A stretch of 35,265 nt of DNA from a virus, in the IMG/VR virus record IMGVR_UViG_3300030430_002669, positions 1 to 35,265 of that record. The stretch is one strand, 5' to 3'. Under the pieces are notes generated by a model, which was given only the letters and a program-made list of their open reading frames with translations, searched no databases and was not told the origin of the DNA. Position numbers and translations under genes: made by a program. Position 1 is the first letter of the stretch. Every line of letters starts with the position of its first letter. Positions 1,188 to 35,265 of this stretch are shown piece after piece.

Positions 1188-2462
1188 TTATTTATTTGAT
1201 TTTATGTAAGAGCCTATTCTAGATTTTATTTTAGATAAATATCCTCCCTCTTGTGTTTTAGGAGGAGGAAACATCATTGTCTCTTCTTCAAACTTCATTG
1301 GTTTATTTTGATCTTTTTCTTTTTTTCTAATTAAAAAGTCTCGATATTGTTTTACAAAGTTTATTATATCTTTATCTTCAGACTTTATTTCAAAAGGAAG
1401 TTGACTATTCATAAAATTAAAAAGACCTGCAGGGTTTGAAACATCCTCATCAAAAGGAAGTTCTACGACATTAGTTACTTCATCTGATTTTTCATTCATC
1501 ATATCCATAATTTGTTTCGCCTTATCTTTAGGGATAGCTCCACCCTCTTGAGCCATTTCTTCATCCTCTCCTATAACATTAGAGTCGTACTTAGCAACTA
1601 ATTTTTTCATTAATTCCATAGCTGACTCAGCATCATCTTTATCTAAAGCAGCTCTAATAGCCTCTACATCATCTGGTGGTAGTATTAATTCACCACCTGT
1701 AGCCTCACCAATTTTTTTCCCATCTTTTACCATATCAATAGGATTGGTATCATGATCAAACTCTCCTGGAGTTACTCCTCCATCTTTATCTATCTTACCA
1801 CCTTCCTGTAAACCTTGATCAGTTCCTTCTGCCATTCTGTTAAGTTCATTCATTTGCTTAAGATTTAATGCTTGTTGCTCTGGAGTTAGATTATCTCTTC
1901 TTTCTTGACCAAATAATTGTCTAACATCTCCTACAGCTCCTGCACCAATACCTGAGGCAATATCTTCAAGTCCTCCAAATATATTTTGTTGAGCAGCAGC
2001 TCTCCTTGCTTGAAGAGCAGAAAGCTTACCTTCTTTTATAGCTAATCTTTGATCTTCAACTGCTCTTTGCTCTGATGCTAAATTAGCCATAGCTCTTCTT
2101 CTAGCATCATCTTGTAATCCTAAAAGATCTGTACGTTGTTTTCTAGCACTACTCTCCAAGGCTTGTACTCCAGCTAAAATATTTCTAGGATCTTTAGATA
2201 AAGCACCCATAGCAGAGGCTCTGTCAGATGCTTGCTGTTGCTGTAAGTTTTCTATGTAGCTTTGAGATATAGGCTCCTCTGCCATTTGTCTTGTTGCATC
2301 ACTTACCCTTCTTCTTAATTGAGACTTGTCAAATTTTCTAGCTGCTTTTCTAGCTCTTGCAGCTCCTACTAATCCAGATACACCTTTAGCTAAACCTAAA
2401 GCTGCAGTAGCTGCCCCTACAACAGCTTTTTTGGTTTTTTTCTTTTTTACGTGATATGCCAT
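1188..2462 (-). CDS. Probable internal virion / cargo protein (424 aa)
   Basis: Starts at an ATG after a 35-base gap that holds a TAnnTTTG promoter-like box. The N-terminus is strongly basic (residues 1-12), followed by an Ala/Gly/Val-rich stretch (about 13-35) that could touch a membrane. Residues about 40-155 are an Arg/Gln/Ala-rich helical region. The middle holds the sequence PGEFDHDTNPIDMV and then GEATGGELILPPDDVEAI, a block I recall from proteins of marine phages beside the tail genes. The C-terminal third is acidic, then basic. No enzyme motif is visible. A basic, amphipathic start plus long helices fits a protein packed with the DNA and released on infection, but this is inference. 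The gene sits between the 3197-residue protein and a partial gene of similar style. Confidence 0.75.
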   Translation of the reverse strand: MAYHVKKKKTKKAVVGAATAALGLAKGVSGLVGAARARKAARKFDKSQLRRRVSDATRQMAEEPISQSYIENLQQQQASDRASAMGALSKDPRNILAGVQALESSARKQRTDLLGLQDDARRRAMANLASEQRAVEDQRLAIKEGKLSALQARRAAAQQNIFGGLEDIASGIGAGAVGDVRQLFGQERRDNLTPEQQALNLKQMNELNRMAEGTDQGLQEGGKIDKDGGVTPGEFDHDTNPIDMVKDGKKIGEATGGELILPPDDVEAIRAALDKDDAESAMELMKKLVAKYDSNVIGEDEEMAQEGGAIPKDKAKQIMDMMNEKSDEVTNVVELPFDEDVSNPAGLFNFMNSQLPFEIKSEDKDIINFVKQYRDFLIRKKEKDQNKPMKFEEETMMFPPPKTQEGGYLSKIKSRIGSYIKSNK

Positions 2463-26086: not shown

Positions 26087-26494
26087 TCATTGAAACTTAC
26101 TTAATATTATTTGATCTATAGACTTTTGAACTTTTTTTTTATCAGCCTCTAGTTGCATCATAATATTAGGTAAAAATCTCTCTTCCTCTGTTCCATTGTT
26201 TAATACTATAACTGTAGGTATAGTCATAATATTAAATCTAGTTTTAAGCTTACTATTTTTTACTATACATAATTTATAAGCTTTACAATCTTTCAAACTA
26301 TTTAAAAAATCAACTTCATTATTAGAATTCCATTCTGCCCAAAACTCTATAACAACTATACCTTTAGATGTTTTAGAATTAAAATCTTCATCCCCAATAA
26401 AATCTTGTGCCTTTAAAAAACAAGGCAGTGAAAAAAAAATTAAAGTCATAATAACTATGACAAAAATTAATATTCTGTCTGACCAATCTTTCAT
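26087..26494 (-). CDS. Exported thioredoxin-fold protein lacking the CXXC active site (135 aa)
   Basis: Residues 8-28 are a hydrophobic signal or anchor ending in FLKAQ, so the domain should lie in the periplasm. The thioredoxin pattern follows: VVIEFWAEW (47-55) and the cis-proline loop TIPT (91-94), then VIVLNNG. Where thioredoxin has CGPC directly after WAEW, this protein has NSNN (56-59), so both redox cysteines are Asn. Two other cysteines (C70 and C76) could form a disulphide. It cannot act as a normal disulphide reductase; a binding or chaperone role is more likely. It lies between a membrane coiled-coil gene and the endolysin, inside the lysis region. The spacing is four bases upstream, with a 43-base gap downstream. 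Confidence 0.8.
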   Translation of the reverse strand: MKDWSDRILIFVIVIMTLIFFSLPCFLKAQDFIGDEDFNSKTSKGIVVIEFWAEWNSNNEVDFLNSLKDCKAYKLCIVKNSKLKTRFNIMTIPTVIVLNNGTEEERFLPNIMMQLEADKKKVQKSIDQIILSKFQ

Positions 26495-26784: not shown

Positions 26785-27894
26785 TTAAAATATTAAATAA
26801 TTTATACCTGTTCTGATATTATATGAGTCTATCTCCCAGAACCTTACATATCTTCCTTCTACAAATATACTAAATTGTTTATTAATTTTACTACCCATGA
26901 TAAAACCCACGTCAAAATCAATGTTTACGCCATTATACTCATAAGAATATCTACTTAAACCCATGTGAAGTGGATATATTGAAGCCCAAAGATGAGCCCA
27001 AAAATTATCTTTATATATATAATAGTCTGCACCTAGTACAGCAGAAAGTTCATGTTGAAATCCTCTAACCTCTACTTGTTCCCTATTATATCTTTCAACT
27101 ATTTTAGGAAACTCTTCTCTAAAAAACTCTTGATTAGTTCCTATATTTTTAATATCAGGAAACTCACTTACTGGCACATCATCATAATGACTCCAATTAT
27201 CATAAGCATGAGGTGGTACATTTTTATACCAAATAGCTAAGTAATTTTCTGTAAAAGGTATTTGTAGTAAGAAATCCCAATACCCATACATATAAGCTAG
27301 TTCTCTTAAATCATTATTATTTTTTAACCAATCATCTATTGGAGAATAACCATACACAGGGTGAGACCTATGAGCAGCCCCTATAGTAATATCTAAACTT
27401 CCAAAGTTTTTTCTATACCTAACCTCTGCATCTGAATATTGAAGATTTACTATATTGTTATCTACATAAGATGCTCTTGATGTAAAGTTATCAGAAATGT
27501 ATCTTAATCTATATTCATGTTGGCTAAAAATTATTTCACGATTTCTAACTCTTGAAAATTCTAAAAGATACTCTAGTCCTGAAGCGTTTGATATGGTGGC
27601 ATAATCACTAACTTCATTTTCTTGACCTGTATAAAATTGATTTTGTTTTACCTGATAGTCAAACCTTGCTATTTTTCTAAGACCAAAAGTTAAATTTATT
27701 CCAGGAGGGTTAGCTCTTGTTATCTCACTTAGAGTTCCTGCACCACCAAAGTTTTCCACACCACTTACCAAAAAATCTTGTTTTTCCACAAATGGAGCAG
27801 ACGTTGAATAACTTGTGTATAATGTTGCAAATCTTAGGAGTTGTGCACTTGCAGTTGTTGTCCATATTAATAATATTAAAATTAATTTTTTCAT
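26785..27894 (-). CDS. Predicted outer-membrane beta-barrel protein with signal peptide (369 aa)
   Basis: A clear Sec signal peptide (MKKLILILLIWTTTASAQ, cleavage after ASA or near it) starts the protein. The rest alternates polar and aromatic residues in beta strands (YLLEFSRVRNREIIF, LDITIGAAHRSH, FWAHLWASIYPLHMGL, FSIFVEGRYVRFWE). It ends in NYLIF, and a final Phe is the usual signal for insertion into the outer membrane. I do not recognise a family. A phage-encoded outer-membrane protein could block re-infection, help lysis or alter the cell surface; these are guesses. Host origin is possible, but base composition matches the neighbours. It overlaps the upstream basic gene by one base. 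Confidence 0.7.
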   Translation of the reverse strand: MKKLILILLIWTTTASAQLLRFATLYTSYSTSAPFVEKQDFLVSGVENFGGAGTLSEITRANPPGINLTFGLRKIARFDYQVKQNQFYTGQENEVSDYATISNASGLEYLLEFSRVRNREIIFSQHEYRLRYISDNFTSRASYVDNNIVNLQYSDAEVRYRKNFGSLDITIGAAHRSHPVYGYSPIDDWLKNNNDLRELAYMYGYWDFLLQIPFTENYLAIWYKNVPPHAYDNWSHYDDVPVSEFPDIKNIGTNQEFFREEFPKIVERYNREQVEVRGFQHELSAVLGADYYIYKDNFWAHLWASIYPLHMGLSRYSYEYNGVNIDFDVGFIMGSKINKQFSIFVEGRYVRFWEIDSYNIRTGINYLIF

Positions 27895-28145
27895 TATGCC
27901 TCTCTTACCTTTTTAGCTACAGCCTTACTATATTTAGCAAACTGTTTACCTTTTCTTCTAGCTCTTCTTTTAGCTCTGTTTGTTGCAGCTTTTTGACTTG
28001 CAGTTAAAGATTCTCTAACAGACTTAGGTAAATATCTTCCTCTTTGTCCTACAGGTTTTTTCTTATCTTCTTTGTTAACGTAATCCCAATCTTGTTCACC
28101 CCAATCCTTTAAACTTTTTTGTGATTTTTTTAAAGCCTTACCCAT
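27894..28145 (-). CDS. Very basic small protein with RGRYLPKSVRESL motif (83 aa)
   Basis: About a third of the residues are Lys or Arg. The N-terminal part has SLKDWGEQDWDYVNKEDKKK and then RGRYLPKSVRESLTASQKAA, a pattern I recall from short proteins of marine phages and large viruses. The rest is basic (NRAKRRARRKGKQFAKYSKA). It has no membrane segment. It probably binds nucleic acid, perhaps the packaged DNA. It overlaps its neighbours by one base on each side, the third of four basic small genes between 27894 and 28649 and thus clearly co-transcribed. Function is unknown. Confidence 0.65.
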   Translation of the reverse strand: MGKALKKSQKSLKDWGEQDWDYVNKEDKKKPVGQRGRYLPKSVRESLTASQKAATNRAKRRARRKGKQFAKYSKAVAKKVREA

Positions 28146-28333
28146 TATCTATACCCTCCTCCTGCTTTTTTATAAGCCTTAGCAAGCATTTGAGCCTTTC
28201 TTGCAGACCACTGACCAGGAGCACCACCTTTACCTCCAGCCTTTATTCTATTGAATATACGCTTTCTCATTTCTGGTTTTGTGTAATTACCAGCTTTATT
28301 TACTGTGCTTTTTCTTTTTACTGCTTTTGCCAT
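28145..28333 (-). CDS. Small basic protein with KGGAPGQWSARKAQ motif (62 aa)
   Basis: The sequence RIKAGGKGGAPGQWSARKAQ followed by MLAKAYKKAGGGYR is a short conserved unit that I associate with marine phage and virus proteins (perhaps DUF5872). No function is known to me. It is very basic and has no membrane segment or enzyme motif. The gene starts with an ATG one base after the upstream stop and overlaps the next gene by one base. The motif supports a real gene despite the small size. Confidence 0.7.
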   Translation of the reverse strand: MAKAVKRKSTVNKAGNYTKPEMRKRIFNRIKAGGKGGAPGQWSARKAQMLAKAYKKAGGGYR

Positions 28334-28334
28334 A

Positions 28335-28649
28335 TTACCATTTTACTTTATCTGCCCAATACGCTGCAGACATTTTACCTTTTGCTATATTTTTTGCGTG
28401 CCTTGCTTTAAAAGATTTTCTTTTAGCTTTCATTCTAGCACTTTCTCCTTTTTTAGGTGGTCCTGCTGTTCCAGATAATGTTCCAACTTTTTTACCTTGT
28501 TGACCAAACCTTATTGTTTTTATTTTATTTCCTTCTTTTGCTACTACAATATGAGATTTAGTAGGATGATTAGGTGTACGCTTTGCTTTGTTATAACCTG
28601 ATACTCCTGCTTTTTTTAATCTATTGTCTTTTTTTACTGCTTTAGCCAT
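28335..28649 (-). CDS. Basic small protein with KARHAKNIAKGKMSAAYWAD motif (104 aa)
   Basis: Start chosen at 28649 (MAKAVKKDNRLKKAGVSGYN), because it sits in a TAATG overlap with the upstream stop, and the conserved pattern begins there; the frame opens further upstream, but that part lies inside the membrane-protein gene. The C-terminal block KARHAKNIAKGKMSAAYWAD and the middle RTPNHPTKSHIVVAKEG match a family common in marine cyanophages and other phages (perhaps DUF6321). It is Lys/Arg-rich and likely binds nucleic acid or is packaged; this is inference. Confidence 0.75.
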   Translation of the reverse strand: MAKAVKKDNRLKKAGVSGYNKAKRTPNHPTKSHIVVAKEGNKIKTIRFGQQGKKVGTLSGTAGPPKKGESARMKAKRKSFKARHAKNIAKGKMSAAYWADKVKW

Positions 28650-28861
28650 TATTTTTTTGCAAATTTTTCTACTCCTGATATTCCAAAGCATCCTAAAACT
28701 ACCCACACAAAAGAATTATACACATACTCATTTATAATTAATCCTTTTCCTAGCCATCCTGTAATAAGATCTGCAATCATTATAAGACACATTATAGCAA
28801 AAGCTATAAATCCTACTATAGCCTTTTCATTCCAATCGTTACTATCTTTAAATATATTCAT
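28649..28861 (-). CDS. Small two-span membrane protein, holin-like (70 aa)
   Basis: Two hydrophobic stretches (about 14-36, AIVGFIAFAIMCLIMIADLI, and about 46-63, VYNSFVWVVLGCFGISGV), a polar start and a basic end (EKFAKK). This is the shape of a class II holin, and I recall similar proteins in marine phages. A clearer holin lies in the lysis cassette, so this may be a second holin, an antiholin or an unrelated membrane protein. It overlaps neighbours by one base on both sides. Confidence 0.6.
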   Translation of the reverse strand: MNIFKDSNDWNEKAIVGFIAFAIMCLIMIADLITGWLGKGLIINEYVYNSFVWVVLGCFGISGVEKFAKK

Positions 28862-29112: not shown

Positions 29113-30336
29113 TTAAGGAGTAGGGGTATCAGATGAGAATATAGTACCACCAGATGTTATGCCTGGTTTACCATTAAGTTTTTGTAGTGAAACATTATCC
29201 ACTGTAAAGGTATAAGATCCACTACTAGTTTCTCTTTCAATAGCTAACTCATCTGAATTACTATTAGCTACAAAATACTTTACAACATTTTGTGGGCCTC
29301 CAGTCATTGTAACTGATCTTTCTGCAAAAGCTGACAAACCACCATTACCACCAACATCATCTCTAAATCTCATAAGTTTACCTGCAGTACCATTAACAAT
29401 CGCAGTTAATTTATAAGTACTTCCTGATGTATAAGTTACAGCCTGTGTTAATTTACCATATGTGGAACCTACATTTGTAAATGTAGCTACTCCATTATCT
29501 ATAACTGTTGTAGTTCCACTACCTGGTGACCTTTCCCAAGGAGAATCTGTAGTTTCATAAGTATTAGAAATTGAAAAATCACCATTAACAACTAAGTTAT
29601 TTCCAAACCCAGGATTATCTTGATCATGAACTATACCATTTGATTTATCATCAAAAAAACCATCACCCATTTTGTAATAAACTTGCAAAGCAGAACTATT
29701 ATTATAATTGCCTTGATCAAAAGTTAAATTAAGTGGAGATCCACCATTATAAATAGCTGTTGCATTATCGCTATTTAAAGCAGTATTGAATATAGCAAAC
29801 TCATCTATACCTCCATCAAAAGGACTATTAACGCTTCCTTGATTGTTTTTAGCTCCTATAAAAAGATTTCTAGTAGTAGTAAAAGCACCATGATTGGTAT
29901 CAGTTAATGTACCACTGCTTATTGTAACTGAACTTCCATTTACATAAAGAACTACAGATGTATTTGCACTTGAATTTTTTGTAACAGAAATAAGTATATG
30001 TGTCCAAGAACTTGCAGCACCATCACTAAAAGGCTGAGGGTCAGTTCTAAAACTAGCTGATTGATTATTAGACTCAAATATAAATCTTATGTCTCCATTA
30101 GTATCTACTTGAGCTTGAATTTGATCCTCATTATTATCATTTGATCCAAAAAAACACTCTAAAGAAGCAGGTTGACCATCATTTGGTTTAACCCAAAAAC
30201 TAAAAGTAAAACTATTTCTAAAGACATCTTGAAAAGTTTGACCTGTATCTATAAAGTCATCAGTACCATCAAAGCTAGCACTATACTTAGCTTCTACTGC
30301 TTGAATAGATGATATGTTACTTGCAAGACTAAGCAT
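29113..30336 (-). CDS. Adhesin or tail-associated protein with LamG and carbohydrate-binding modules (407 aa)
   Basis: Residues about 18-205 form a LamG/concanavalin-like domain: YSASFDGTDDFIDTG, FTFSFWVKPNDG, the central WTHILISVTKN, and GGIDEFAIFNTALNSDNATA near its end. Residues about 245-390 resemble a CBM4/9-type sugar-binding module (NLVVNGDFSISN ... FTVDNVSLQKL). There is no membrane segment. It probably binds surface glycans and helps attachment. The role is inferred from domains and from its place at the head of the late operon, between a small virion protein and small genes. The extended N-terminus (1-15) is hydrophobic and could be a weak anchor or only a virion-attachment segment. 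Confidence 0.75.
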   Translation of the reverse strand: MLSLASNISSIQAVEAKYSASFDGTDDFIDTGQTFQDVFRNSFTFSFWVKPNDGQPASLECFFGSNDNNEDQIQAQVDTNGDIRFIFESNNQSASFRTDPQPFSDGAASSWTHILISVTKNSSANTSVVLYVNGSSVTISSGTLTDTNHGAFTTTRNLFIGAKNNQGSVNSPFDGGIDEFAIFNTALNSDNATAIYNGGSPLNLTFDQGNYNNSSALQVYYKMGDGFFDDKSNGIVHDQDNPGFGNNLVVNGDFSISNTYETTDSPWERSPGSGTTTVIDNGVATFTNVGSTYGKLTQAVTYTSGSTYKLTAIVNGTAGKLMRFRDDVGGNGGLSAFAERSVTMTGGPQNVVKYFVANSNSDELAIERETSSGSYTFTVDNVSLQKLNGKPGITSGGTIFSSDTPTP

Positions 30337-30339
30337 ATA

Positions 30340-30714
30340 TTATACTGGTGCAAAGTAACAAATACAAGCTCCTGAGTGAAGCTCTACTTTATCCCATCTA
30401 CCAAAAACTGTAATACCTTTTGGAAATACTTGACCACTAGCATCAACACTTAAATCTGTTCCATTTGCTGAAGCACCAATACCATTTGTAGCATCATCTA
30501 AATCATTTTCTGCAGTAAGAGTACTAAAAGACCCTACTTCACCACCTAAAGTTTCTAAGTCATGAAATTGAGTATCCTCTAAAAAAGTTATAGAACAAAT
30601 ATATCTTGTTGCTGAAGATCCACTTAAATCAATTAAGTCATCATCACCATCTAAATATGTAGATCCATACTGACCTAAACTTGCCTCTTGAAATTTTCCC
30701 CCTGATAAAGCCAT
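30340..30714 (-). CDS. Small virion-type protein (124 aa), first gene of the minus-strand block
   Basis: Starts MALSGGKFQEASLGQYGSTY and ends with PKGITVFGRWDKVELHSGAC and ICYFAP. The closing block (TVFGRWDKVEL, then a beta strand) is one I recall from short structural proteins in marine phages. It is mostly beta and acidic, without signal peptide or membrane span. It is the first gene after the divergent promoter region, and its ATG follows an A/T-rich leader with no Shine-Dalgarno sequence. Decoration or tail accessory protein are both possible; I cannot separate them. Confidence 0.65.
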   Translation of the reverse strand: MALSGGKFQEASLGQYGSTYLDGDDDLIDLSGSSATRYICSITFLEDTQFHDLETLGGEVGSFSTLTAENDLDDATNGIGASANGTDLSVDASGQVFPKGITVFGRWDKVELHSGACICYFAPV

Positions 30715-30747
30715 AATATTTTATTTTAATAATTTTTTTGTTATATG

Positions 30748-30755
30748 CAAATGTA
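30748..30755 (-). promoter_or_regulatory. Divergent promoter, minus-strand -7 box (TACATTTG)
   Basis: On the minus strand TACATTTG matches TAnnTTTG 33 bases before the ATG of the 124-residue gene, at the head of the whole 30-kb minus block. The same octamer occurs at 2478-2485. A -33 TTTG is not evident. It faces away from the plus-strand box at 30786-30793. Confidence 0.5.
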
Positions 30756-30785
30756 GCAATTATTTTTTAATTATAATAAAATTAT

Positions 30786-30793
30786 TATATTTG
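30786..30793 (+). promoter_or_regulatory. Divergent promoter, plus-strand -7 box (TATATTTG)
   Basis: TATATTTG matches the Bacteroidetes -7 element and ends 20 bases before the ATG of the winged-helix gene. A T-rich stretch lies where -33 is expected but without a TTTG. The same octamer heads the scaffold-capsid transcript at 18003-18010. Confidence 0.5.
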
Positions 30794-30813
30794 TCATAAT
30801 TTAAGTTAATTTA

Positions 30814-31137
30814 ATGAGGAATTATTTAAAGTATCTTAGTGATACTATATATTCCTTTCAAAGGAAGTATGATCTTTCAGATAATCAGTTAAAGTTCCTT
30901 TTATTTATAAATGATGAAAAAGGTTCTTTTACTAAAAGATTTATAAAGGAAAGTATTTATGTTAGTAAAAATTTTATTGATAATAAATTTCCTGACCTTG
31001 TAAAACGAGATTATATTTTTATCTTTGAAAAAAGAGTTTGGGGCTCAACATTACCTAATAAGTATAGAGTAACAAGTAAAACAAACAGGTTAGTAAACAG
31101 ATTTTATAACGTCCTAGAAGGACACGAACAAATTTAA
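30814..31137 (+). CDS. Small winged-helix-type protein, possible regulator (107 aa)
   Basis: The order of helices (LSDNQLKFLLFINDEKGSFT, then KESIYVSKNFIDNKFPDLVK) followed by a hairpin (RDYIFIFEKR ... NKYRVTSKTNRLVNRFY) looks like a MarR-like winged-helix domain: turn, recognition helix, then wing. I recall close relatives in marine phages ending in a similar LVNRFYNVLEGHE segment. It is basic overall and should bind DNA. Its place next to the divergent promoters suggests control of late genes in both directions, by analogy only. The start is an ATG 20 bases after a promoter-like box. Confidence 0.65.
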   Translation: MRNYLKYLSDTIYSFQRKYDLSDNQLKFLLFINDEKGSFTKRFIKESIYVSKNFIDNKFPDLVKRDYIFIFEKRVWGSTLPNKYRVTSKTNRLVNRFYNVLEGHEQI

Positions 31138-31138
31138 T

Positions 31139-31522
31139 ATGTATCACTCAAAACAAAAAAAAGCAACACATGGTGCTAAAATGAAAAAAGCCTTAGGTGG
31201 AATGGCTATGAAAAAAATGAAGATGATGGAAAAAGGTGGAAAATTAAAAATGGTTAAAGGTCCAGATGGTAAAATGGTTCCATTCTTTGCAGCAGATGGA
31301 AAAGGAAAAATGGCAATGGGTGGAAGAATGGGAAGTAAAGAAATGATGGAAAGTATGAAAAAAGATGATAAAATGTTAGGACATGGAGGGAAAATGAAAA
31401 AAATGGGACATGGTGGTGGAGTAATGCTTATTATGCCTGTAAAAAAATCTAAAAAGAAAGCAGCTATGGGAGCTAAAATGAAAAACATGAAAGCTCGTTA
31501 TGGTGCTAAAATGAAAAAATAA
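31139..31522 (+). CDS. Met/Lys/Gly-rich low-complexity protein (127 aa)
   Basis: About 24 of 127 residues are Met and more than a quarter are Lys, with many Gly. Short units recur: GAKMKK, GGKMKKMGHGGG, GGKLKM. In the middle is VKGPDGKMVPFFAADGKGKM, and I recall similar AADGKG blocks in marine phage proteins. It has no Cys, and several His lie in GHGG repeats. It should be disordered and bind nucleic acid or metals; the function is unknown. It starts two bases after the regulator gene and ends six bases before the fibre gene. A 114-residue open frame on the opposite strand is only its shadow. Confidence 0.75.
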   Translation: MYHSKQKKATHGAKMKKALGGMAMKKMKMMEKGGKLKMVKGPDGKMVPFFAADGKGKMAMGGRMGSKEMMESMKKDDKMLGHGGKMKKMGHGGGVMLIMPVKKSKKKAAMGAKMKNMKARYGAKMKK

Positions 31523-31528
31523 ATTTAA

Positions 31529-33157
31529 ATGAAGTCACCCCTAGTAAAGGGTATTGGTGAAGTAGTCACTGATTATGGTACCAAAATAATAAGAATATTT
31601 AAAAAAGGGCTACTGGGACGTAGCCTTTTTGATTTCTATGGAGATATCAAAGCCAATGCTCTTAGAGTAAAAGAATCTACAAATGTACCTACAACTCCTT
31701 TTGATAAAGAGGGTGGAGTTTTATATGTAAAGTCTTCTGATGGAAAACTATTTTATAAAAGTAATGAGGTTAGTGAAACAGACTTAACTAGCACAGCAGC
31801 TAGTATAGGGGATCTTACAGATGTTGATCTTACTGGTACTGTAGTAAATCATATATTAGTTTTTGATGGAAGTAAGTTTAAGACTAGGTTAGCACAAGAT
31901 GTTATTAATACTCCAGCTATATTTACTTTCACTACTCAATCATTTTCGTCTTCTAATTTACCTACAGCAACTCAATTAGTGGGAGATGATAGTGTTACGT
32001 TTAAAGCTGCTGGTGCTATTTCATTTGCTGCTACATATTTTCCAGATGGTGCAGCTCCTAACGATGCTAAAATACAAATTAAAATACGTAATGCTTTAGG
32101 TACTAGCACTATATTTAATGATGGTTCAAGTAACATTATAGCTAGTAATTTATCAAGTTTTCAAAATTTAAATAGCATGACAGCTACTGCTTTTACATCA
32201 GGGTCAAACTCATTTGATATAAAGCATCCTGAACCATCTACCACAAGTACATCTACTTACCCTAGTATCCAATTTCAATTATCAGTTCAAGAGGCTCTTG
32301 GTGGCTCTTTTGTTAACTTTACTACAACAACTTTAACAGTTAGTTTTGCTAATAAAATATTTAGTGGTGTAAGTAGTCAAACTAGTTTAACTGAGAGTCA
32401 AATAGAGGCATTAAGTCAATCTTCAATTAGCACAGGTTTCACTTCTTCAACTTCAACTTTAAATGCAGGGTCAGGTGAATTTTTATATAGGGCTGTACCT
32501 GCAAGATATGCTGATTATCATATAAATTATACTAATGCTGATGGTACTACTTTACAAACAGGAGATACTTTTGGTTTTACATATAATGGAATTACTTGTC
32601 CATTTATTAAGTTAACTGCAGTACCTGTCACTAATAGTAGTAGTTTTCAGGAAGATTATGATGTTTTTAAATCAGTAAAATCTAATTTAGGTAGTGGAAC
32701 TATAGCTTTTTCAACAAGTAGTTTAAATAAATCTAATACTATTATTGGTATCACTAAAAGGAGTGCTCATTCAGATATGGTCGCTGATGATTTAAAAGCT
32801 GCATCAACAGGAGATACTTTAAACACTAACCAAACTTTTATAATTCAAAGTAGCATATTAACTTCTGTTACAGGAACTTTTAATTTAAGTGTAAGCTCTG
32901 GTCATAGTTTAGGTAATACCATTAAAGTATTTTTTGCGTTTCCAGATCATATGACTAATGCTGATGCAGTAAAATTTAATCTTCCAGGATCTCCAGTTGG
33001 TGGATTTAGTGGTGGTAATAGCCCAAGCCCAGCTACTTTAGATGATGTTGAAAATGCAAATGGATTTTTAGAAAGGTATAGAATATATATATCAGATAAT
33101 ACTAATATATTATCAAGTGGAACTTCTGGAACAATAACTTTAACAGCTACAACATAA
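31529..33157 (+). CDS. Tail fibre-type protein (542 aa)
   Basis: The first 50 residues (KGIGEVVTDYGTKIIRIFKK, then GLLGRSLFDFYGDIKANALR) probably attach to the virion. Next comes a fibre-type segment GGVLYVKSSDGKLFYKSNEV and SIGDLTDVDLTGTVVNHILV, a signature of phage fibres with collagen-like or beta linkers. The rest is Ser/Thr/Gly/Asn-rich beta sequence (about 130-540). It has no enzyme motif, chaperone domain or signal peptide. It ends in two consecutive TAA stops. It is probably a host-contact fibre; the next gene is another. A terminator-shaped hairpin overlaps codons 25-34. Confidence 0.75.
   Translation: MKSPLVKGIGEVVTDYGTKIIRIFKKGLLGRSLFDFYGDIKANALRVKESTNVPTTPFDKEGGVLYVKSSDGKLFYKSNEVSETDLTSTAASIGDLTDVDLTGTVVNHILVFDGSKFKTRLAQDVINTPAIFTFTTQSFSSSNLPTATQLVGDDSVTFKAAGAISFAATYFPDGAAPNDAKIQIKIRNALGTSTIFNDGSSNIIASNLSSFQNLNSMTATAFTSGSNSFDIKHPEPSTTSTSTYPSIQFQLSVQEALGGSFVNFTTTTLTVSFANKIFSGVSSQTSLTESQIEALSQSSISTGFTSSTSTLNAGSGEFLYRAVPARYADYHINYTNADGTTLQTGDTFGFTYNGITCPFIKLTAVPVTNSSSFQEDYDVFKSVKSNLGSGTIAFSTSSLNKSNTIIGITKRSAHSDMVADDLKAASTGDTLNTNQTFIIQSSILTSVTGTFNLSVSSGHSLGNTIKVFFAFPDHMTNADAVKFNLPGSPVGGFSGGNSPSPATLDDVENANGFLERYRIYISDNTNILSSGTSGTITLTATT
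31603..31630 (+). terminator. Terminator-shaped hairpin inside the fibre gene
   Basis: AAAAGGGCTAC and GTAGCCTTTTT pair over 11 positions (one G-T wobble) around a six-base loop (TGGGAC) and end in five Ts. The shape is that of a rho-independent terminator, yet it lies within codons 25-34 of the 542-residue gene. The minus-strand copy also ends in a T-run. It may be a leaky attenuator lowering fibre synthesis, or a coincidence of KKGLLGRSLF coding. Confidence 0.4.
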
Positions 33158-33161
33158 TAAG

Positions 33162-35265
33162 ATGTCAGTAAATATATTAGGAATTTTAGGTCAACAAGGA
33201 ACATCACCATTTAAGTTAATCAATGGTAAGGATGTAGATTTAAAAAATGCAACAGATGGAACTGGAATAACAATAAGTGGTTCAGACTTGTTATTAATTG
33301 ATGATGTAGATCAAACTTTTAGCTTTGAAGGTGTAGATGGTTTAACAGGGGGTGGAGCTCAAGCTAGTACAAAAAAGGTAACATTTAGTCAAGTGCTAAC
33401 TTATATTAATAGTAATATAAGTTCAACTGCTATTGGAATAGCAGGACCTACAGATGGTGATGTAAGTATAAGTTCTGATGGTAATATAACATTTATCTTA
33501 GATGATGATAATGATGAAACATCTCAATCTTTTTCATTTAAAAATGATGATACAGAAATTGCTAATTTAGATGAAAGTGGTAATCTTCAAATAGATGGTG
33601 GTATTACTACAGGTTCAACATCATTTGTTAATAGCTCAGGTGTAATTCAAGTAGCTACTCAAGGTACAATAGATCATGATTCACTTGCTAACTTTGTTGC
33701 AGAAGAGCATTATAGATGGGATACTGATATAAGTAGCACTGCTACAATCCATGCAAATAATATACCTATATTAAATCAAAATACATCTGGAACAGCTGCT
33801 GGTTTGTCTGGTACTTCTCTTACAAGTGTAAATTCAATATTAAACACATCTTTAGTAGCAGGTAGAGATGCTGATAATCAAATTAAATTTAATACAGATA
33901 ATCAAATAATATTTAGAGTTAGTGGTGGTGATGGTATAACAATGAAAGCTTCAGGAGAAATAGAGGCTACTAAATTTGATGGGGCGTTAGAGGGAAATGC
34001 AGATACTGCAACACTGGCTGCTGGATTGTCTGATGGAGCAACATCAACAGGAGATACTTTTACTTTTAGATCATCAAATGCTAATGACCCTTTATTTATA
34101 ATAAAAAATACAAATGATGGAGCTAATGGTCCAAGATTAAAATTACTTAATGATAGAGCTTCTGATGGACAAGATGATGATGAAGCTGGTATTATAGAGT
34201 TTGTAGCTAAAGATGATGGAACTCCAACAGAAAATACATATGCTAAAATAACTGGATTAGTATCTTCAGCAACTGCAGGATCTGAAGAGGGAACTCTTGA
34301 ATTTAAAGTAAGTAATGGAAGTGGGGGAGATTTAACAGCTTTAAAATTAGATGGTGATGGAACTCATAATTTTTCAGGAACAGTAAGTGCTACTACTTTT
34401 ATTGGTGCTTTAACTGGAAATGCTACAGGTTTATCTAGCACACTGGCTGTATCTAGTGGAGGAACAGGAGCAACAACTCTTACTAGCACAGGTATTTTAC
34501 TTGGTAATGGTACTAGTGCTATTCAAGCAAGTTCTAATATAAAAGTTACAAGTGATATACTAACTATTAAAAATGAAGAAACTGATGCAGGTGGTTCTAT
34601 AAAATTTCTTGAGGGTTCAGATAATGGTAGTCATGGAACTATTATTCAATCTACTGATAATTTAGGTTCAGACATAACTGTAAATTTACCTAATTCTTCT
34701 GGAACTTTAGCTTTAACTTCTGGAAGTGTTGCTACATTAACAAATGCTAGAACTATAGGTGGAGTATCATTTAATGGTAGTGCTAATATAGATTTACCTG
34801 GTGTAAATACAAATGGAACCCAAAGTATAGAATACACTCCAACAAGTTCTGAACAGGCAGCAGGTAATAATTCTGCTATAATAATTAAAGAAGGAAATAC
34901 AACTACAGTTGCAGGTAAGGTTTATTACTTAGCTCCAAATGGAACTTGGGTATTAGCAAATGCTGGGGCAGAGGGAACAAGGAGTGGTTTACTTGGAGTT
35001 GCAGTTGGAACAAACTCAACAACAAATGGTATGGTTACAAAAGGACTTGTTACTATATCAACTCATGCTACAAGTGGTGGTGTTGGAAAAACAGTTTATT
35101 TACATACTACAGATGGTTTAATGACAACAACTGCTCCTAGTTCAGTTCGTATTTTAGGAGCTATAGTTAAACATCATAGCAATAGATGTGAAGTATATTT
35201 TAATCCTGATAATTTTAATGGGCAGGCTGCAAATCCATCATCTTCTTTTGTAGATGATTATGCTT
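33162..35265 (+). CDS. Tail fibre protein, C-terminus cut off by the window edge (at least 701 aa)
   Basis: An ATG (MSVNILGILGQQGTSPFKLI) four bases after the previous stop opens a frame that stays open to the right edge. Seen in order: GLTGGGAQASTKKVTF (fibre-linker), DHDSLANFVAEEHYRWDTD near residue 165, a block common to many phage fibres, then GALEGNADTA and GALTGNATGLSSTL repeats typical of fibre shafts (LEGNADTATL, SSGGTGATTLTSTGILLGNG). Near the end is a folded domain (GKVYYLAPNGTWVLA ... GLLGVAVGTNSTTNGMVTKG ... GKTVYLHTTDGLM). These are the marks of a side tail fibre or receptor-binding protein. No chaperone is seen, since the end is missing. Composition resembles its neighbours. Confidence 0.85.
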   Translation, partial: MSVNILGILGQQGTSPFKLINGKDVDLKNATDGTGITISGSDLLLIDDVDQTFSFEGVDGLTGGGAQASTKKVTFSQVLTYINSNISSTAIGIAGPTDGDVSISSDGNITFILDDDNDETSQSFSFKNDDTEIANLDESGNLQIDGGITTGSTSFVNSSGVIQVATQGTIDHDSLANFVAEEHYRWDTDISSTATIHANNIPILNQNTSGTAAGLSGTSLTSVNSILNTSLVAGRDADNQIKFNTDNQIIFRVSGGDGITMKASGEIEATKFDGALEGNADTATLAAGLSDGATSTGDTFTFRSSNANDPLFIIKNTNDGANGPRLKLLNDRASDGQDDDEAGIIEFVAKDDGTPTENTYAKITGLVSSATAGSEEGTLEFKVSNGSGGDLTALKLDGDGTHNFSGTVSATTFIGALTGNATGLSSTLAVSSGGTGATTLTSTGILLGNGTSAIQASSNIKVTSDILTIKNEETDAGGSIKFLEGSDNGSHGTIIQSTDNLGSDITVNLPNSSGTLALTSGSVATLTNARTIGGVSFNGSANIDLPGVNTNGTQSIEYTPTSSEQAAGNNSAIIIKEGNTTTVAGKVYYLAPNGTWVLANAGAEGTRSGLLGVAVGTNSTTNGMVTKGLVTISTHATSGGVGKTVYLHTTDGLMTTTAPSSVRILGAIVKHHSNRCEVYFNPDNFNGQAANPSSSFVDDYA

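Follow-up and report, generated by a model that had tools for sequence, protein, structure and literature searches.

What might a protein of 127 residues, composed in large part of methionine, lysine and glycine, do for the phage that encodes it? The question is raised by the ORF at positions 31139-31522 (plus strand) of the window, the whole stretch of 35,265 bases of a virus record analyzed here. The large minus-strand ORFs of the window encode a terminase (phrog_6681), a portal (phrog_6547), a virion structural protein located where the capsid gene usually lies (phrog_13704) and a virion protein of 3,197 residues (phrog_14478). The presence of terminase, portal and virion protein ORFs identifies the genome as that of a tailed phage. 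Its terminase is nearest to that of Caudoviricetes sp. MW202828 (48.5%), followed by those of Flavobacterium and Cellulophaga phages (around 38% for the best Flavobacterium ones), relatives that make a Bacteroidota host likely. No phage record matched the first 25 kb of the window at the DNA level.

Several other genes of the window were noticed as well. Consecutive small basic proteins of phrog_14910, phrog_17747 and phrog_7595 are encoded at 27894-28706 (minus strand), with the phrog_17747 gene at 28145-28333. Roseophages, cyanophages, SIO1 and HMO-2011 have proteins about 47-73% identical to the phrog_7595 protein, which also shows a weak match to phrog_220 (minor head protein and DNA pilot). 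A thioredoxin-like protein (PF00085) with a hydrophobic N-terminus lies at 26087-26494 (minus strand), in the phage late region. Also, a protein of 424 residues (1188-2462, minus strand) contains repeated EGG motifs and DGKKIGEATGGELILPPDD, belongs to no Pfam or PHROG family and is possibly another linear-motif protein.

A basic, repetitive protein under purifying selection

Recomputation of the 31139-31522 gene (here MKG, its product P0001) agreed with a preliminary description of this DNA in position, strand, length and richness in Met, Lys and Gly. Met accounts for 24 of the 127 residues (18.9%), compared to 1.85% in the other ORFs of the window (binomial 2e-17); Lys (34 residues, 27%; 2e-12) and Gly (21 residues; 1e-4) are enriched over the same ORFs. 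The protein has a pI of 10.5, a charge of +29 and four His, and no evident signal peptide or membrane segment. The repeats described earlier are present as well: GAKMKK at residues 12-17 and 122-127, with the variant GAKMKN at 111-116, and GGKMKKMGHGGG at residues 83-94.

Close relatives of P0001 in viral contigs share 87%, 72% and 64-66% identity with it. Comparison with five relatives (L001, L002, L003, L005 and L007) gave dN/dS values of 0.06-0.16, which mark the gene as real and selected; on sequence evidence, the ORF is translated and under purifying selection. An antisense ORF at 31144-31488 is not consistently retained at similar length among relatives. The preliminary description had allowed for a low-complexity non-coding stretch should conserved homologues be lacking. 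Simple composition and an empty masked tblastn search would suit such a non-coding or neutral stretch, but the dN/dS values and an invariant core present in hundreds of contigs (at least 434 viral loci) refute it, and its likelihood is negligible.

Several segments of the chain recur in relatives. A clade-specific segment, RMGSKEMMESMKKDDKML (31325..31378, plus strand; residues 63-80), predicted to form a short helix, is retained across the window clade, including a member devoid of the core (L008). A short hydrophobic stretch, GVMLIMPVKKSKK (31418..31456, plus strand; residues 94-106), has a similar counterpart, ALAIMIAPVKTKKMK, close to the N-terminal end of the protein in L005 and L007, which is read as segment shuffling. 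The C-terminal [YM]GAKMK[KN] repeats (31466..31519, plus strand; residues 110-127) are repeated in relatives too, the form AMYGAKMKK being the one repeated in L003-L008 and L019.

The conserved core and its distribution

A scan of viral contigs with P0001 as query recovered 41 loci, whose otherwise differing proteins have a single stretch in common. This core, GGKLKMVKGPDGKMVPFFAADGKGKMAMGG in P0001 (31235..31324, plus strand; residues 33-62), is near-invariant in amino acids across divergent phages, with Ala, Gly, Val and Pro codons varying freely. The family of proteins it defines (module M1, VPFFAADGKGKM) has the consensus GG-x-L-x-MV-x-K-x-G-x-x-VPF[FY]AADGKGKM-xx-GG and carries one core per ORF. 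The pattern by which family members were recognized, MV followed by G-x-x-VP[FASH][FY]AADGKGKM-xx-GG, is found in P0001 at residues 33-62. The letters AADGKGK are fixed by the search patterns, and their conservation is not independent evidence; conserved outside these patterns are MV before the turn, the G three residues ahead of VP and a GG pair that follows GKM at a distance of two residues. The core is the most informative part of the protein and was missed by the preliminary description; judging from it, P0001 is not featureless low complexity.

AlphaFold models of P0001 have a mean pLDDT of only 53-57. The model made without an alignment places strands at residues 35-40 and 46-51; that made with 34 family members places hairpin strands at 38-40 and 46-48, with a mean pLDDT of 76 only at residues ~41-50 and low confidence in the remainder. 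A helix at residues 67-75 appears in both. Tentatively, the models suggest that the core forms a small hairpin and that the remainder of the strongly basic chain is disordered.

In viral contigs, a degenerate DNA pattern of the core matched at least 120 places. With an alignment of 19 cores as query, at least 599 candidate places were recovered in IMG/VR and relatives sharing the core were confirmed at 434 loci or more. The same kind of search in 84,980 bacterial and archaeal genomes found two relatives, one in a contig of the alphaproteobacterial assembly AG-908-F15 that also has a portal-like ORF (L163) and the other in a Flavobacteriaceae MAG contig (L164). The two contigs are phage-like, with neighboring small basic genes as in phages. 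The core is nearly absent from cellular genomes and is common to many distantly related phages.

Neither P0001 nor the core belongs to any Pfam or PHROG family, at the curated level or at E<0.1, and homologues match these libraries only via extra parts, such as LysM or phrog_16759. The PDB holds no relative of either (two matches were at chance level), in keeping with the earlier remark that its composition is unlike that of any well-known phage structural protein. A degenerate core pattern was absent from ten phage records scanned whole. Masked tblastn searches with P0001, two relatives and the bare core returned no match even at E 10. This outcome is regarded as uninformative, since low-complexity filtering probably masks such queries, and homologues in cultured phages may have escaped detection in the same way. 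The literature on the core peptides, DUF6321 and virion proteomics yielded nothing on the M1-core family. Since the core recurs at so many viral loci and has no family in the databases searched, these results point to an unrecognized, widely used small late phage protein.

Across the family, Met and Tyr replace each other in the G[M/Y]AKGG repeats (159 Met versus 150 Tyr), an exchange that would fit hydrophobic or aromatic contact points. Within the core, Met occurs once in MV and once in GKM, and there is no conserved His or Cys; the His residues of P0001 are not conserved in the family. The abundance of Met (24) and the four His in 127 residues had suggested binding of metal, copper in particular. 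Interchangeable Met and Tyr and the lack of conserved His or Cys ligands weaken this proposal, which was rejected as very improbable.

Genomic context and exchange of modules

In the window, the MKG gene begins 1 nt after an ORF encoding a winged-helix-like (wHTH) regulator of 107 residues (30814..31137, plus strand; phrog_12817, E 1.6e-4) and ends 6 nt before a fibre-like gene (31529..33157, plus strand; MKSP...GIGEVVTDYGTK...), thus lying between regulator and fibre genes as first described. L001-L008 and L019 share this order of wHTH, MKG and fibre-like gene. The conserved N-terminal anchor of the fibre-like product matches 19 loci; the gene has no Pfam or PHROG family, the label 'fibre' resting on position and on the preliminary description. 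This plus-strand operon is separate from the head genes, on the opposite strand, and diverges from them at an intergenic region (30715..30813) apparent from the ORF map. Two TAnnTTTG boxes occur there (30748-30755, minus strand; 30786-30793, plus strand); their role as signals is only suggestive, as the whole window contains 63 boxes versus 59.6 expected, and thus no enrichment.

A terminator-like hairpin with an 11-bp stem and a TTTTT tract (31603..31630, plus strand) is located inside the fibre-like gene, ~80 nt past the stop codon of MKG and ~75 nt after the fibre-like start. Its predicted fold has a dG of -14.3 kcal/mol (z -4.1), similar in three relatives, and it is present in 15 of 16 distinct fibre-like gene starts. 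Among 14 sequences, synonymous change is almost absent from the codons of the stem, even from those for Leu, Arg and Ser with their six-fold degeneracy, and the loop and flanks vary; in L005 and L006 one loop codon is lost and the stem is intact. This pattern, seen in related sequences, is suggestive of constraint on the stem. Rfam gave no match at 30000-35265. The hairpin is possibly an attenuator between MKG and the fibre-like gene, or a conserved recombination joint; if it terminates transcription, the wHTH and MKG products would exceed the fibre product.

Elsewhere in the family the surroundings are different. A portal, adaptor, tail or capsid gene occurs within five genes in 121 of 163 distinct core loci, 707 of 721 neighbors belonging to shared families have the orientation of the core gene, and the median gap to neighbors is 1-2 nt. 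Position varies with the phage group, the core gene following the portal or lying beside the adaptor; as judged from sequence, its immediate neighbors in L109 and L196 are a major capsid-like gene on one side and a tail-like gene on the other, and it follows very long ORFs in L170 and L223. Such differing arrangements indicate that the core is carried by several kinds of phage and not by one lineage. An endolysin-like neighbor was found in only 6 of the 163 loci.

Many core-bearing phages also encode, nearby, small basic proteins of DUF6321, phrog_7595, phrog_17747 or phrog_14910. These are Lys/Arg-rich and have no sequence in common with the core. The DUF6321-type segment, ending in RLRQARRRWKC, occurs as a stand-alone small protein (L018:5672-5965, L163:4221-4604 and many others) and as the C-terminal end of the much longer PHROGs 10346, 3477 and 28131, in the manner of a C-terminal tag. 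An ArfA-like segment (PF03889, ribosome rescue) was noticed in a Lys-rich protein near a core gene (L022:2836-3195); ArfA is also reported for gp30 of pelagiphage HTVC027P (PMC12753301).

At the locus of the window, the gene between the wHTH and fibre-like genes is a mosaic. L001-L007 have the M1 core in this slot; L008, L252 and L261 have in its place a second module, M2 (KGLxKLPxxVRNKMGYMKxGG), and these core-less phages of the clade indicate that the core is not indispensable there. M2 is also widespread, with at least 120 places, including cultured roseophages CRP-1 (gp63), CRP-13 and CRP-345 (gp75) and phage 023Pt_psg01; further sites are in small basic phage proteins (L241:12949; L385:2011-2178; L386:2935-3093). 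Only 2 of 260 full ORFs with either module contain both, in a pattern sampling that favors single finds. Two M2 proteins (L294, L323) start with a segment like phrog_17747, a family that the window encodes as a gene of its own; this suggests that these small basic proteins are functionally linked. In addition, a LysM-like motif is present in 26 of 157 full core ORFs, and a few core ORFs, L041 among them, begin with the N-terminal module of phrog_16759, which is common to PHROGs named 'virion structural protein'. Sequence comparison thus presents the core as an exchangeable module.

Counterparts in cultured phages resemble P0001 only in part. The unannotated CRP-1 gp63 (55 residues) and CRP-345 gp75 (52 residues) are small and basic, a short invariant module preceding GG in each, and their module is the one that fills the slot of the core in the sister phages of the window; however, it reads KLPxxVRNKMGYMK and not VPFFAADGKGKM, the two modules being unrelated in sequence. 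Gp47 of Pelagibacter phage HTVC027P and its counterpart in 023Pt_psg01 are Lys/Gly/Met-rich, lie a few genes after the portal/connector and have a gene start akin to that of a core-bearing locus (L018; 82% over 82 nt), but lack the core. For HTVC027P, early, middle and late transcript clusters are reported (PMC12753301). The N-terminal module shared by phrog_16759, phrog_22033 and phrog_25121, two of them named virion structural protein, is likewise a short linear module opening diverse phage proteins; it is absent from P0001.

Possible roles of the protein and its core

The explanation we favor, with some reserve, is that P0001 is a late, disordered, cationic virion-associated protein equipped with a docking hairpin. 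A disordered basic Lys/Gly/Met chain would carry a single docking element, short and folded (the VPF[FY]AADGKGKM hairpin), flanked by GG linkers. The protein would be made late and would enter or coat the particle, where the hairpin may bind a conserved virion part, the portal/adaptor vestibule and the capsid interior being candidates. The cationic, Met/Tyr-studded chains could then bind packaged DNA or neighboring chains loosely, forming a multivalent tether, and LysM-joined versions might place a domain that binds peptidoglycan on the particle or in the ejection path. This late virion role is supported by the same-strand context of assembly genes, the near absence from cells, the selection on the core and the exchange of modules, and also by the LysM and phrog_16759 attachments, the basic charge and the predicted disorder with a hairpin. 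Position in a late operon does not prove presence in the particle, as chaperones, regulators and lysis genes are also encoded there. The separate operon of MKG, divergent from the head genes, the low confidence of the predicted hairpin and the core-less phages of the clade also count against this explanation. The sticky disordered linker of the preliminary description came closest to this evidence, given the cationic chain and predicted disorder, but left out the conserved core.

Small basic proteins that condense DNA in virions include the adenovirus-type core proteins and the phage T4-type internal proteins. P0001 is like them in being cationic and disordered and possibly packaged with DNA, its packaging being putative; we know of no sequence match between P0001 and either type. 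The main rival, rather doubtful in our estimate, is a protamine-like chain that would neutralize packaged or replicating DNA without a specific partner, its core serving for self-association. A pI of 10.5, a charge of +29, a Lys content of 27% and the unrelated small basic proteins encoded nearby in many such phages would all suit this role. Long acidic stretches in some members (e.g. DDDDMEYMMEEE in L067) and LysM-like domains in others argue against it, and a near-invariant core of 30 residues exceeds what charge neutralization needs.

Three further roles are less likely than DNA condensation. That P0001 is an assembly helper or linker for the adjoining tail fibre, which we consider unlikely, agrees with the tight wHTH-MKG-fibre order in L001-L008 and L019. 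However, this role and the specific link with adhesion genes proposed earlier are weakened: fibre adjacency is confined to the window clade, most core genes adjoin portal, adaptor or capsid genes instead, and the conserved terminator-like hairpin parts MKG from most of the fibre gene. A host envelope or lysis factor, in which a cationic disordered protein disturbs the envelope at lysis and LysM versions are held by peptidoglycan, seems improbable: the charge, the LysM-like motifs and the occasional endolysin-like neighbor are compatible with it, yet lysis genes are rare as neighbors, the M2 proteins of cultured roseophages lie near the endolysin gene but not adjacent to it, and P0001 has no evident export signal or membrane segment. 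A regulatory or host-takeover role in concert with the winged-helix protein, for instance by binding RNA or RNA polymerase and altering read-through of the hairpin, is more improbable still; the 1-nt spacing from the winged-helix ORF and the conserved hairpin downstream are what it would explain, but the core is widespread where neither a regulator nor a hairpin-bearing fibre gene was seen adjoining.

Beyond P0001 itself, it is conceivable, if somewhat unlikely, that many phages share an unrecognized virion docking or tagging code that recruits variable cargo. It would be formed by short, near-invariant modules (VPF[FY]AADGKGKM and KLPxxVRNKMGYMK among others) borne on disordered GG/Lys-rich chains and exchanged among phages that are not related. 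These phages are probably mostly marine, an attribution drawn from related isolates.

Whichever role applies, a near-invariant element of 30 residues in hundreds of differing phage contigs marks a function that many phages need. None of the standard family libraries searched includes M1, and its composition hides it from masked searches. The swap of modules in one genomic slot makes a search for binding partners and knock-out experiments direct. Should M1 prove to be a tag for docking to the virion, some of the small basic gene blocks that lack annotation in marine phages would be accounted for, and the module could be used to load chosen proteins into phage particles.
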